From the NCBI GenBank assembly GCA_002067755.1, contig MVQH01000068.1, positions 1-57,724 of the forward strand: a DNA stretch of 57,724 nucleotides, written 5' to 3'. The translations under genes were made by a program, and so were the position numbers. The notes under the pieces were generated by a model. That model did no database searches. It saw only the letters and a program-made list of their open reading frames with translations, and was not told the origin of the DNA. Within the stretch, counting starts at the first letter, position 1. Each line of letters opens with the position of its first letter. Positions 12,967 through 17,964 of the stretch are shown here, in pieces. Source of the DNA: Methanosaeta sp. PtaB.Bin018. GTDB taxonomy: Archaea > Halobacteriota > Methanosarcinia > Methanotrichales > Methanotrichaceae.

Positions 12967-13899
12967 CTACGAGTCCAGGCTTCTGCAGATTCGGCCGCTG
13001 GAGAGGAGAGCAACCCTGCTGAGTGGCACATCCATCGAAAGCTCATAGCCCATCTCATTCCCGAGCGCTCTTGCAAAGCTCAAGACTTCGGCATGATCTG
13101 GCATGGCCTGTCGGTCGAGCCTGGTTCTCGAGCGGCCAAGATGCATATAGGCTTTAACCTCTACAAAATCAGGTTCTGCAGACTCAAGAAGTCGGGCAAA
13201 ATCCACTGGCCGCTCCATATTCAGGCCGCGTGCTACGGTCATGCGGACGACGCTGCGACAATTGTGATTTTTTAGAATGCTCAAGCTCTCTTGGATCTTG
13301 GGCCAGAATGGACCATTGGGTTGTGATATGCGCCGATACATCCCCTCATCGGGTGCATTAAGGCTGATGTATAGCTGGGTCGGCCTGATGCTCTCCAGGA
13401 CCTCTGGGTTCGTTCCATTGCTGACCAAGAAAGATGTCATTTTCCGTCTTGAGATAAGATCGATGAGCTCTTGCAGATATGGATAAATGGTAGGCTCGCC
13501 CATGAGGGAGATGGCGACGTGTTTGGGCTCCAGGGCCTCCTTTAGCCTGGATCTGTCTGTGGTCTTGGCCCCGCCGTATCCTGAGAGTATTCTCTGCTGC
13601 TCGTGAAGGATGCCATCCAGAAGCGCAGCAGGCTCCATGGGCTCCTCCTCTGGCAGAACGCTGTCGATCGGCCTCCAGCAGTACAAGCAGAGGTGATTGC
13701 AGCGAAGTGTTGGCGTCATTTGCACGCAACGATGGCTAGAGATGCCGTAAAAGTGGTGCTTGTAGCACTGATCCCCGCCGCGCATACTGCGATTGAGCCA
13801 GAGGCAGGGCTTGACTGCTCCTGAGCCGACGAGATGATAACCCTGCTTGGCGAGTGTCTTTTTCGCCTCAATGCCGTCTATGTTATCTGGACTGTCCAT
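12967..13899 (-). CDS. taw1: tRNA 4-demethylwyosine synthase (Taw1/TYW1)
   Basis: A 310-residue radical SAM enzyme that condenses pyruvate with N1-methylguanosine-37 of tRNA-Phe to form the tricyclic 4-demethylwyosine. The radical SAM cluster motif is C-x3-C-x2-C in RCNHLCLYCWRP; the family-specific N-terminal CLWLNRSMRG and CYKHHFYGISSHRCVQMTP supply the second Fe-S cluster ligands. SLMGEPTIYPYL and FLVSNGT are typical SAM-barrel strands. The next enzyme of this pathway, Taw2, is encoded at 54.1 kb in the same window. Start ATG 13899 lies in a divergent promoter region. Confidence 0.92.
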   Translation of the reverse strand: MDSPDNIDGIEAKKTLAKQGYHLVGSGAVKPCLWLNRSMRGGDQCYKHHFYGISSHRCVQMTPTLRCNHLCLYCWRPIDSVLPEEEPMEPAALLDGILHEQQRILSGYGGAKTTDRSRLKEALEPKHVAISLMGEPTIYPYLQELIDLISRRKMTSFLVSNGTNPEVLESIRPTQLYISLNAPDEGMYRRISQPNGPFWPKIQESLSILKNHNCRSVVRMTVARGLNMERPVDFARLLESAEPDFVEVKAYMHLGRSRTRLDRQAMPDHAEVLSFARALGNEMGYELSMDVPLSRVALLSSGRICRSLDS

Positions 13900-14035
13900 G
13901 TTACCTGGAAAAAAGATTTGTCCGTGGGTAAATACTTATCTTATGTGGCGCGAAGCCTGTCCAATGTCCCTTCTCGCTCCCCAGGTGAGATAAAAAGAAT
14001 TATATTGCCATCAGGACCATCCATATCTTCGGAAA

Positions 14036-15475
14036 ATGTCTCGTCGGATTGTGGTTGTTCTGGCCCTGCTGCTTGTCATCGTCGCGGGAGGCTGTAGTGC
14101 ATCGGCAAAAGCACCCTCCCAGGTCCCAGCCAGCGAAATCATCTCCAGGATGGCTGAAGGCCAGCCGGTTTATTGCGAAGGCGCAACTATCGTGGGGGAC
14201 ATTGACCTGTGCGCTCTTCCCGAGGCCAGGGCAAAGAGCGTTCTTTCGCTCATAAACTGTACCGTCGCCGATGCCAACTTCAATGGCCTGACCCTGGAGA
14301 AGGATGTAATCTTTCTTGGTACCACCTTTGGAAACGTCAGCTTCACAGGCACAGCCTTCCACCAGCCTGCTGCCTTCGATGGTGCAAAGTTTCTGGGATT
14401 TGCGAGCTTCGTGGACTCTCAGTTCGACAAAGATTCCAGCTTCAACGATGTTGAATTTCGGGATGTAGATTTTAACTATTCGAAATTCGGAGGCTATTCC
14501 TTCTTCTCTGCCGCCCTTTTCCTTGGCAACGCCAGCTTCTCAGATGTGGGCTTTCTGGGGGCGGCAGATTTCAGTTCTGCCAAATTCAGCAGAGAGGCCA
14601 ACTTCATTCGCAGCAGATTCGACGACGGAGCCAGCTTTTCTGGTGCCTTCTTTGGCGGACCGACGAAATTCGGCCTTTCGAGGTTTCAGGGGCTGTGCTC
14701 TTTTGGCGATGTCACCTTTGCAGGAGAGGCAAACTTCGGACTGGCTCGCTTTTCAGACGCCGCTTACTTTTCAGGAGCTCAATTTCAGGACAGAGCAATC
14801 TTTGGACTGACCAAATTCGAAGAGATCGCAAGCTTCCAAGGGGCTTCTTTTGCAGATGATCTGATCCTGAAGGGCGCTCTGATCTCAACCTTCCTTCTGG
14901 AGAATGGAAATTATGGTCGAAATGCTCGAATCATCCTGAATGACTCCAACATCGATCGGCTTAAAGTCCATTGGAGAGAGATCAAAGGTCACCTGCTTTG
15001 GGATCCAGGGGCCTATCTTGCGCTTGTGAACAACTATCGCAACCTGGGATGGTCCAGCGATGAGGACGACTGCTATTATCAATACAGAAGACTGAACCAG
15101 GAGCATAAGAGCCTGGGCTGGTCAAAAGCCATTGATGCCCTGGCTCATCTATCCTGCGGCTACGGCGTGAGGCCCAGCTATGCTGTGGCCTGGTCGCTGC
15201 TGACAATTTTGATCTTCGCCATGGTCTTCTGGCTTGGAGATGGCATTCGCAGGTCTGCCCAGCCGCTGCAAGGTCCTGCAGAGACATACGCTCTGCCAGA
15301 GCATGTGACATTCAGAAATGCCATCTTCTTCAGCACCATGATATTTCTGTCCCAGGGGCCCATTGACTTCCTTCCCGTTGGCAGGCACAGATATTACGTC
15401 ATACTGGAGGGAATCTTGGGATGGCTGCTGCTCGCCCTCTTTTTAGTCACCCTTGGCAAGGTGATGATCAGATGA
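14036..15475 (+). CDS. Pentapeptide-repeat protein with channel-like C-terminus (copy 1)
   Basis: A 479-residue membrane protein. Residues 1-20 are a signal sequence with a lipobox-like VAGGC; residues ~70-300 are phenylalanine-centred pentapeptide repeats (AxFxx units such as ANFIRSRF, ASFSGAFF), predicted to form a right-handed beta-helix. The C-terminus has two membrane helices (~375-400 and ~445-475) around a re-entrant segment RNAIFFSTMIFLSQGPIDFLP, the arrangement of a two-TM ion channel, but the usual TVGYG filter is missing and replaced by FLSQGPID. The stop codon overlaps the start of a paralogue (ATGA). The function is unknown; an ion-conducting or stress-sensing role is inferred only from shape. 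Confidence 0.85.
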   Translation: MSRRIVVVLALLLVIVAGGCSASAKAPSQVPASEIISRMAEGQPVYCEGATIVGDIDLCALPEARAKSVLSLINCTVADANFNGLTLEKDVIFLGTTFGNVSFTGTAFHQPAAFDGAKFLGFASFVDSQFDKDSSFNDVEFRDVDFNYSKFGGYSFFSAALFLGNASFSDVGFLGAADFSSAKFSREANFIRSRFDDGASFSGAFFGGPTKFGLSRFQGLCSFGDVTFAGEANFGLARFSDAAYFSGAQFQDRAIFGLTKFEEIASFQGASFADDLILKGALISTFLLENGNYGRNARIILNDSNIDRLKVHWREIKGHLLWDPGAYLALVNNYRNLGWSSDEDDCYYQYRRLNQEHKSLGWSKAIDALAHLSCGYGVRPSYAVAWSLLTILIFAMVFWLGDGIRRSAQPLQGPAETYALPEHVTFRNAIFFSTMIFLSQGPIDFLPVGRHRYYVILEGILGWLLLALFLVTLGKVMIR

Positions 15476-16953
15476 CGGTTTTAATCAGATGGATGGCGAT
15501 ATTTGCAGCCTTTCTGCTGCTTTGCGGAGCCTGCGTGGCGCAGCCCGATTTCATCGAACCGCCTTTGGATGGCGCAGGTCCGACTGTCATCAAGGCCCAG
15601 GAGATCTTGTCCAAAATCGTGACAGGCGAACCACTGAATTATGATAATGTCACAATAGCCGGGTCCCTTGATTTGAGCCACCTGGCCGAGCCTGTGAGGC
15701 AGTCGGTGAGGATCACTAACTCCCAGTTCCAGGGATCTTTGAACTTCGTGGGCGTGACATTCAATGAGCCACTGGACCTCAGGGGCACTGTTTTTCAAAA
15801 GAATGTCAGCTTTTCCAAGGCCAGATTTCTTGGGGATGCCAAGTTCGCAGGTTCCAGGTTCTTTGGGCAGGCTGACTTCATCGATGCTGTCTTTGCGGGC
15901 CTCGCCTCCTTCACGAGCGCGCGCTTCTTCAACGACACGAGTTTCGGAAGCGTTCAGTTTGGACAGGACGCGATCTTCATGGCAGCCAGCTTCTCCAGAG
16001 ATGTGGACTACAATTTTGCAAAGTTCTCCAGGCTCGGTTATTTCGAGAATGCTCGCTTTGAGAATGTGAGCTTTCTGCAGTCCCAGTTCGAGGGCCATGT
16101 TACCTTTCTCAATGCTCAGTTCCGGGGAAATGCCACATTTGCAGCCACGCGCTTCAATAGCGATGTGGTCTTCCGAGGCGCTCGGTTCCTCAGAGGCAAT
16201 ACCTTCGGCCTGGCGAACTTCGGGGGATTCTCAGATTTTGCCAATGTGCTCTTCGTGGATCCAGCCTTCTTTGGGGTGACAAGGTTCTCAGACAACGCTT
16301 ATTTTGTCAATGCCAGGTTCGATAAAGGCTTGATCCTCGAGGACGCCAGGCTCTATAGCATGCAGCTTGACAATGTGTCGTTCGGAGATAGCGCAAAGAT
16401 CAACCTAAATGGGGCAGACTTTACCAAGTTCGTGGTGCGGTGGAACGCCATAAAGGATCGCATGGTATACGATGGGGCTGCGTATCTTGCGCTGGTGAAG
16501 AACTACAAGAGCCTGGAGTGGTTCGATGATGCAGACGACTGCTACTACCAGTACCGCAAAATAGGTCAGGACCTGGAGCCATGGGGTTGGGCGAAGATCT
16601 CGGACATCGTATCATGGATCTCCTGCGGCTATGGGGTTCGCGTGAGCTATACTGCAGTCTGCTGCCTCTTTACCATTCTCTTGTTTGGCGTGATATTCTG
16701 GGCTGGAAAAGGAATGAACAAGTTTGAGATAGAGGGATTTGAGCTTCCAGGAAATTCGGGGCTGCGGCCCAGCACGCGCGTGTCCCTGACTGATGCCCTC
16801 TATTTCAGCATCGCCATGTTCACCACCTCCCAGGCTCCTGTTAATACTTATCCAGTGGGCTTCTACAGACATCTTGCAATGCTGGAGGGGATCTTGGGCT
16901 GGTTCTTCCTGGGACTCTTCGTGGTTGTGTTGAGCGGCGTTTTGATCCGCTAG
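15472..16953 (+). CDS. Pentapeptide-repeat protein with channel-like C-terminus (copy 2)
   Basis: A 493-residue paralogue of the gene just upstream, with the same order of parts: signal sequence (FLLLCGACVAQ), pentapeptide repeats (residues ~70-310, e.g. AKFAGSRFF, ATFAATRFN), a conserved linker with DDCYYQYRKIGQDLEPWGW, then helix, pore-like loop and helix. The pore segment reads LTDALYFSIAMFTTSQAPVNTYP, closer to a K+ channel (TDALYFS, TT, YP) than copy 1, but the glycine-tyrosine-glycine filter is again lost. The ATG at 15472 overlaps the previous stop by four bases, so a co-translated hetero-oligomer is plausible. The start upstream at 15421 lies inside copy 1 and is not used. Confidence 0.85.
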   Translation: MTVLIRWMAIFAAFLLLCGACVAQPDFIEPPLDGAGPTVIKAQEILSKIVTGEPLNYDNVTIAGSLDLSHLAEPVRQSVRITNSQFQGSLNFVGVTFNEPLDLRGTVFQKNVSFSKARFLGDAKFAGSRFFGQADFIDAVFAGLASFTSARFFNDTSFGSVQFGQDAIFMAASFSRDVDYNFAKFSRLGYFENARFENVSFLQSQFEGHVTFLNAQFRGNATFAATRFNSDVVFRGARFLRGNTFGLANFGGFSDFANVLFVDPAFFGVTRFSDNAYFVNARFDKGLILEDARLYSMQLDNVSFGDSAKINLNGADFTKFVVRWNAIKDRMVYDGAAYLALVKNYKSLEWFDDADDCYYQYRKIGQDLEPWGWAKISDIVSWISCGYGVRVSYTAVCCLFTILLFGVIFWAGKGMNKFEIEGFELPGNSGLRPSTRVSLTDALYFSIAMFTTSQAPVNTYPVGFYRHLAMLEGILGWFFLGLFVVVLSGVLIR

Positions 16954-17009: not shown

Positions 17010-17084
17010 GGGCGCGTGGCCTAGTCAGGATAAGGCGGCAGCCTCCTAAGCTGTAGATCGGGGGTTCGAATCCCCCCGCGCCCG
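17010..17084 (+). tRNA. tRNA-Arg(CCU)
   Basis: A complete cloverleaf: acceptor GGGCGCG/CGCGCCC with discriminator G, D-arm GCC/GGC, anticodon stem GCAGC/GCTGT with loop CTCCTAA giving anticodon CCT at 17045-17047, T-arm GGGGG/CCCCC around TTCGAAT. The CCA end is not encoded and there is no intron. It reads AGG codons. It stands between the pentapeptide-repeat genes and hisG. Confidence 0.95.
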
Positions 17085-17091
17085 CTGCTCT

Positions 17092-17964
17092 TCAAGGAAC
17101 TATCTTTGAGATTGCCAGCTCCAAGATGTCCTCAGCCCCTGCTTTTTTCAACTGGGGAATGAGCAGGTTGACAAGAGATCTGTCAACGACCGTCTCAACG
17201 GCACAGTAGCCTGAGTTGTAGAGCTTCGAGATCGTGGGGTTCTTCATGCTAGGCAGAATGGCAATCAAACCGGTTATCTTGTCCTCAGGCACGTTCATCT
17301 TCAGCAGCACTTTGCCCCGTGCCCTCATGACTGCAGAGAGGAGCGTCTCCACAGCTACGATGTCATCGTGTTTCTGCGGGTCCGCCCAGCTCCTCTTGTT
17401 TGCGATCAGCTCTGATGTGGACTCAAGCATGACTTCTATGATCTTCAGGCCATTCTTCTTCAGGGTCGATCCGGTCTCTGTGAGGTCCACAACAACATCG
17501 GTCAACTCCGGAACCTTGGCTTCTGTGGCGCCAAAGGAGAACTGAATCTCCACAGGTATGCCAAGCTTCTGGAAGAATGACCTGGTCAAGTTGGGATACT
17601 CAGTGGCCACACGGCTTCCCTGTTTTATCTGGCTGGCAGAGTAAATCTCCTCAGATTCAGGCACAGCCACCACCAGCTTCACCTTGCCGGGACCCATCTT
17701 GCCATAGTTCAGCTCTGTGACCTTGGTCACTATGGAACCAGACTCCATTATCCAGTCTGTGCCTGAGATCCCCAGGTCGAAGTAGCCCTTGGCCACATAC
17801 CCTGGTATCTCCTGGGGGCGGAGGATTTTTACCTTGCCGATGCGGGGATCATCGATTCGAGCATTATACTCTCTCTCTGTTCTCTTGACCTCAAGGCCTG
17901 CCTGTTCGAAGAGCTGTAGCGTCTGGTTTTGCAGGCTGCCCTTGGGAATGGCGATGTCGATCAT
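17092..17964 (-). CDS. hisG: ATP phosphoribosyltransferase, long form
   Basis: A 290-residue HisG catalysing the first step of histidine synthesis (ATP + PRPP). It is the long form that includes the C-terminal regulatory domain (after about residue 210: LKMNVPEDKITGLIAILPSMK), so it does not need HisZ and should be feedback-inhibited by histidine. Catalytic-domain landmarks are IAIPKGSLQNQTLQLFEQAG, DLGISGTDWIMESG, and the PRPP loop VDLTETGSTLKKNGL. The 3' end lies 8 bases from tRNA-Arg, which is convergent. Confidence 0.93.
   Translation of the reverse strand: MIDIAIPKGSLQNQTLQLFEQAGLEVKRTEREYNARIDDPRIGKVKILRPQEIPGYVAKGYFDLGISGTDWIMESGSIVTKVTELNYGKMGPGKVKLVVAVPESEEIYSASQIKQGSRVATEYPNLTRSFFQKLGIPVEIQFSFGATEAKVPELTDVVVDLTETGSTLKKNGLKIIEVMLESTSELIANKRSWADPQKHDDIVAVETLLSAVMRARGKVLLKMNVPEDKITGLIAILPSMKNPTISKLYNSGYCAVETVVDRSLVNLLIPQLKKAGAEDILELAISKIVP

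Follow-up and report, generated by a model that had tools for sequence, protein, structure and literature searches.

The question raised by this locus is whether two adjacent genes of a methanogenic archaeon in the window (viz. the whole stretch of 57,724 nucleotides that was analysed), whose products were read in a preliminary description as pentapeptide-repeat proteins ending in a K+ channel-like pore that lacks the selectivity filter, are derived from K+ channels, and what has become of the pore and of its orientation in the membrane. The features of the two genes, referred to as A and B, and of their surroundings are listed below.

12967..13899, minus strand: radical-SAM protein (TYW1-like by eye), syntenic upstream neighbour outside the system (same in 20 loci)
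14000..14006, plus strand: TATA-box-like TTATATT, ~30 nt upstream of the A start (read from the sequence)
14036..15475, plus strand: gene A, predicted exported pentapeptide beta-helix/filter-less P-loop protein, 479 aa
14036..14104, plus strand: A signal peptide MSRRIVVVLALLLVIVAGGCSAS (KD 2.67 over 19 aa; AF2 helix 2-17)
14117..14965, plus strand: A pentapeptide-repeat beta-helix, residues 28-310 (Pentapeptide_3, E 8.7e-34; AF2 strands, pLDDT about 93-98)
15065..15088, plus strand: A DDCYYQYR linker motif (family-wide)
15119..15166, plus strand: A amphipathic helix before TM1, residues 362-377, with SCGYGVRP at its end (AF2; conserved columns)
15173..15238, plus strand: A TM1, residues 380-401 (AF2, hydropathy)
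15311..15346, plus strand: A pore helix, residues 426-437 (AF2; hhalign)
15350..15376, plus strand: A filter-equivalent loop SQGPIDFLP (hhalign to T-I-G-Y-G-D-W-Y-P of GYG relatives; kept in orthologues)
15386..15469, plus strand: A TM2, residues 451-478, no tail beyond (AF2)
15460..15465, plus strand: Shine-Dalgarno-like GGTGAT ahead of the B start (read from the sequence)
15472..16953, plus strand: gene B, paralogue of A, 493 aa, from ATG 15472
15472..15540, plus strand: B signal peptide MTVLIRWMAIFAAFLLLCGACVA (KD 2.23 over 19 aa)
15595..16434, plus strand: B pentapeptide-repeat beta-helix (Pentapeptide_3, E 3e-30)
16534..16557, plus strand: B DDCYYQYR linker motif
16642..16698, plus strand: B TM1 (KD 2.33)
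16822..16854, plus strand: B filter-equivalent loop TTSQAPVNTYP, exceeding the A loop by one residue
16891..16947, plus strand: B TM2 (KD 2.65)
17010..17085, plus strand: tRNA-Arg(CCT), local landmark
17092..17964, minus strand: hisG-like ORF (by eye), syntenic downstream neighbour (same in about 19 loci)

The gene pair and its relationship to K+ channels

Both open reading frames are present as originally described, and the two genes are co-directional with an ATGA overlap; the frame of gene B opens at 15421, ahead of its ATG. Coupling through ATGA holds for this pair, but as a general feature it was rejected, as it is seen in the nearest species only, and in other genomes with an identifiable B start codon gene B begins 7-107 nt downstream of A. 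The transcript of gene A may possibly be short-leader or leaderless. Further, the described order of a signal sequence, a pentapeptide domain and a C-terminus of two helices and a loop is supported by Pfam, by hydropathy and by an AlphaFold2 (AF2) model of A. Pentapeptide_3 (PF13576) matches A with 115.9 bits and B with 104.6 bits, both above its gathering cutoff of 27 bits, and the hydrophobic segments in both proteins are the N-terminal signal sequence, TM1 and TM2. The AF2 model, which covers full-length A only (mean pLDDT 91.8), contains the beta-helix fold followed by linker helices (residues 324-357), the amphipathic helix, TM1, the pore helix and TM2. In Foldseek comparisons, the TM1-pore helix-TM2 fold of this monomer model matches KirBac3.1, Kir6.2, CNG and KcsA (probability mostly 1.0, E 0.02-0.08), with a TM value of 0.71 to KcsA by KcsA length.

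No selectivity filter of the TVGYG type is present in A or B, where SQGPI and SQAPV stand at this place. The Ion_trans_2 profile (PF07885, cutoff 22.5 bits) scores A below its cutoff, at 14.4-16.8 bits alone and 20.6 bits in the genome search, and gives no match to B. Since a profile of the filter-less sequences alone also matches no channel in the PDB, the channel origin of A and B is a transitive one, established through their relatives. The filter-less profile and the profile of the GYG family match each other from end to end (hhalign E 3.5e-59), in a register where SQGPID of A sits under TIGYGD of the GYG relatives, and the GYG family in turn matches solved K+ channels (best E 2.6e-9) as well as Ion_trans_2 above the cutoff (E 3.2e-14 and 6.9e-16). 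The linker, CGYG[VL][RK]P, the pore helix and TM2 are shared by the GYG relatives and the filter-less set. The proposed search for the same architecture and for filter variants recovered GYG relatives and intermediates across Methanosarcinia: intact filters (TVGYGDWYP, TIGYGDWYP, TLGYGDWYP) are present in many members outside the genus of the window, and intermediate ones (TFGNND, TIEYGDW, TMSYKEW) were also found, whereas nearly all of the Methanotrichaceae paralogues are without a filter. As these relatives retain TVGYGDWYP and match Ion_trans_2, the membrane domain of A and B can be traced to a K+ channel, and the profile comparisons establish its homology to the archaeal GYG channels, with the filter since replaced. 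Due to this, the earlier reading of a K+ channel pore stands in so far as this is a P-loop domain of the K+-channel type which has lost its filter, but the match is firm only through the relatives, the Pfam score being sub-threshold. The substitution of TVGYG by FLSQGPID (A) and TTSQAPVNTYP (B) agrees with the alignment to T-V/I-G-Y-G-D-W-Y-P of the relatives.

Constraint on the genes and the role of the membrane domain

Homologues of A and B are found in 48/50 genomes of the family, often as many paralogues, and the C-terminal domain in 77/238 genomes of the class. The DDCYYQYR linker had been suggested to be a gating or assembly part shared by A and B. A gating role specific to this pair is not supported, as in the form DADxAYYQYR the linker is common to the whole family, GYG members included. 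The loops of the paralogues are highly diverse (GRNPQN, AKTQVKW, ANSKG, GGTP, HTHPP). In one gene A copy (L024, G027:C41), the sequence is missing from the filter loop onwards to within TM2 (FFSTMVFLFLVTLGRVMIR). The genome of the window also encodes a paralogue (L004, contig C101, about 134130-135497) with a signal peptide, the pentapeptide domain and the linker and without a membrane domain, which is apparently secreted, and a K+ channel of the ordinary voltage-sensor-like kind, in which TVGYGD is present (L164, contig C63), due to which K+ channel function in this genome need not depend on A and B.

Synteny of the A/B locus extends over 16-20 loci in the genus and beyond it in other genera, and the comparison of these loci demonstrates vertical inheritance. 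In trees built without the loop columns, the loop reads S[QR]GP in the A clade and [SA]Q[AG]P in the B clade almost throughout. Mean entropy is lower in the loop than elsewhere (0.28 vs 0.57 for A and 0.05 vs 0.52 for B) in groups that were chosen by the loop motif and with which the clades from the loop-free trees agree; the loop codons vary synonymously, with 3-5 codons at most columns, and the pore helix is likewise conserved within the orthologue groups. In view of these fixed loops with synonymous variation and of the synteny, A and B are constrained genes that are not decaying. An obligate heteromer of A and B was considered and rejected as probably not required: B is found without an intact A in G017, G026, G030 and G038, some of which are incomplete genomes, and in G016 the two genes are separated. 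Since B persists without A, such a heteromer is unlikely, and A and B would each probably be able to function alone.

In the mechanism proposed here, A and B would descend from a pentapeptide-repeat K+ channel and be exported, with the filter replaced by SQGPIDFLP (A) or TTSQAPVNTYP (B), the signal peptide placing the beta-helix outside the cell and the pore domain inverted. The subunits may still form a P-loop pore as tetramers, with the selectivity for K+ lost, and the outer beta-helix may act via the linker and the amphipathic helix on TM1, gating or stabilising this pore. We hold such a pore, of altered selectivity and controlled by the outer beta-helix in this manner, to be a serious candidate for which doubt weighs slightly more than belief. 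The diversity of the paralogue loops could also be drift in proteins which have ceased to conduct, and the A copy in L024 has lost the loop and a part of TM2. These same observations suit an explanation that shares the origin and the inverted topology and in which the pore domain is an anchor or oligomerisation platform displaying the beta-helix on the cell surface. If so, one can understand why the filter is gone in nearly all Methanotrichaceae paralogues and many unrelated sequences stand in the loop, why the same genome has a secreted paralogue that lacks the TM domain, and why the beta-helix makes up most of the protein. However, conservation within each orthologue group includes the loop and also the pore helix, and we regard this dead-channel explanation as a substantial possibility that is rather more doubtful than probable.

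Orientation of the pore domain in the membrane

The preliminary reading did not include the inversion of topology that a signal peptide brings about. If the signal peptide exports the beta-helix and a single TM segment lies ahead of the P-loop, then the P-loop will enter the membrane from the cytoplasm. Hydropathy reveals no additional membrane segment between the beta-helix and TM1 in A, in B or in the GYG relatives, and 10 of the 10 Methanosarcinia GYG members with readable N-termini carry signal peptides. It is thus strongly suggested that in A and B the beta-helix is outside, TM1 runs from out to in and the P-loop dips into the membrane from the cytoplasm, so that the membrane domain appears to be upside down in comparison to ordinary K+ channels.

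The positive-inside rule is an established check on membrane orientation. In the TM1-to-P and P-to-TM2 loops together, proteins with a signal peptide have on average 6.3 K/R, versus 0.95 in members of the same clade without one and 1.9 in outgroups without one; the former of these signal peptide-less groups has 6.7 K/R ahead of TM1. The presence of a signal peptide, assigned by hydropathy and inspection, tracks the K/R content of the loops with an AUC of 0.964 over 106 proteins, with a full split in the first 70. However, the signal-peptide trait changes ~5 times on a poorly resolved tree, with 1 contrast on well-supported branches, and due to these 1-5 independent changes the association carries no phylogenetically corrected significance; an independent-pairs test of signal peptide against charge had no power for the same reason. 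N-glycosylation sequons were dropped as a sign of export, as the repeat pattern enriches them in members with and without a signal peptide alike.

The GYG members from haloarchaea, other Halobacteriota and Nostoc lack signal peptides and presumably have cytoplasmic repeats, which could be taken to indicate that the N-terminal segment of A and B also does not export the beta-helix, and that the pore is oriented as in ordinary K+ channels, with only its filter changed. We consider this unlikely, as A, B and their GYG relatives have classic signal peptides, the K/R bias of their loops is opposite to that of the signal peptide-less relatives, and no extra TM segment intervenes between the beta-helix and TM1. 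Returning to the inverted topology, since the clade with signal peptides includes channels with an intact GYG filter, the inversion probably preceded the loss of the filter. Some Methanotrichaceae paralogues (339-aa type, GRNPQN loop) may then have lost the signal peptide and flipped back, or never have flipped. A paralogue of this kind in the genome of the window (L003, contig C24:3742-4458) has no signal peptide, a loop reading FLGRNPQN and a strongly positive segment ahead of TM1, and it is predicted to be oriented oppositely to A and B in the same cell. Two GYG members (L127 and L128) contain a ~85-aa Lys/Glu-rich insert between TM1 and the pore helix, in the predicted cytoplasmic loop, and for this insert a PH-like fungal domain gave only weak similarity (E 0.03).

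Comparison with known systems

HalA, the effector of the anti-phage system Hailong, is a channel that a DNA ligand keeps closed. Among PDB folds it (9nyi) comes closest to the full-length model of A (E 9.5e-5), and likewise to the C-terminal domain of A; the second match to full-length A, AlbG, is weak (E 0.02). A viral fold library gave no match at E <= 0.001, and what it matched weakly were repeat proteins and small K+ channels of viruses. Based on its likeness to HalA, A could be viewed as a similar defence effector. However, the implied localisation differs, as an exported beta-helix would not meet a cytoplasmic DNA signal, and A and B are vertically inherited. Further, no HalB nucleotidyltransferase is seen at the locus, a housekeeping syntenic one whose neighbours are the radical-SAM-like ORF, the tRNA-Arg and the hisG-like ORF, and HalA is not among the PDB sequence matches listed, some of the lists giving the first 60. 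PADLOC gave no match with a 2023 library that may predate Hailong. We regard a HalA-like role as very improbable. That the two membrane helices with their loop look like a K+ pore merely by chance, as the sub-threshold Pfam score and the missing PDB match of the filter-less rows alone might allow, is refuted by the end-to-end hhalign match to the GYG channels and can practically be dismissed.

A beta-helix-gated channel that is non-selective or inactive had been considered new in the preliminary description. The architecture of pentapeptide repeats with a channel pore is in itself known from haloarchaea and Nostoc, where the records carry the names pentapeptide repeat-containing protein or potassium channel family protein. 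In these proteins (from haloarchaea, other Halobacteriota and a Nostoc plasmid) the repeat is likewise N-terminal to a 2TM P-loop pore of the Ion_trans_2 type, and many have the GYG-type motif before TM1. However, they lack signal peptides, have few K/R between TM1 and the P-loop and retain a GYG-like filter, whereas A and B are predicted to be exported and are filter-less. KirBac3.1 and the Kir channels, which also consist of 2TM and a P-loop, are the best sequence matches of the mixed profile and near-best structurally, and Kir channels have an amphipathic helix before TM1, as in A; they differ in having a cytoplasmic C-terminal gating domain, an intact filter and the normal orientation.

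Elsewhere, such an inverted arrangement is familiar from glutamate-receptor channels, both those of brains and those of cyanobacteria. GluR0 and the prokaryotic iGluRs possess a signal peptide, an extracellular domain and an inverted P-loop domain derived from K+ channels, and the sequence evidence suggests the like for A and B. Their ligand domain is a split periplasmic-binding protein, whereas A and B have a pentapeptide beta-helix and end with TM2. The SQG of the A loop presumably resembles the QQG motif of iGluRs, and this was not used as evidence. In GluR0 and the glutamate receptors the P-loop enters from the cytoplasm, and the origin of these receptors is explained by an inverted K+ channel inserted into a binding protein (PMC6385376). 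Some of the GluR0/prokaryotic iGluR members are without a recognisable K+ filter (PMC2950845, PMC6385376), and a 2010 survey found no Group 1 or 2 prokaryotic iGluR members in archaea (PMC2950845).

Pentapeptide-plus-channel annotations and the inverted K+ pores of GluR0 are thus known already. A search of mostly non-subscription papers gave no report of pentapeptide-repeat channels in Methanothrix or in archaea generally, and in this literature we also did not find the two features combined in archaea, in a single family that has both orientations and loses the filter by degrees. Tentatively, we propose an archaeal inverted K+-channel pore, apparently independent of the glutamate receptors and gated from the outside by an exported beta-helix, where Methanosarcina-type species keep the filter and most Methanotrichaceae paralogues have lost it, and where both orientations occur in one gene family and even in one genome (A and B with a signal peptide, the C24 paralogue without); this proposal may well be correct, with the balance falling a little on the side of doubt. 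Inverted P-loop channels are usually discussed for glutamate receptors only. If the topology is true, then this family will add a second inverted case, in which the exported domain is much simpler, close relatives have the opposite orientation, and a graded series leads from TVGYG to no filter. The evolutionary flipping of a pore in the membrane and the loss of selectivity would then both be open to test.

Among the signal peptide-less pentapeptide channels, five from other archaea of the phylum (L206-L209 and L216) share a conserved variant of GYG in their filter (TSLGYSNIQPN or TSLGYANIQPN), and L206-L209 carry a Cys/His N-terminal motif (ECPLEALPGEEYCYWH).
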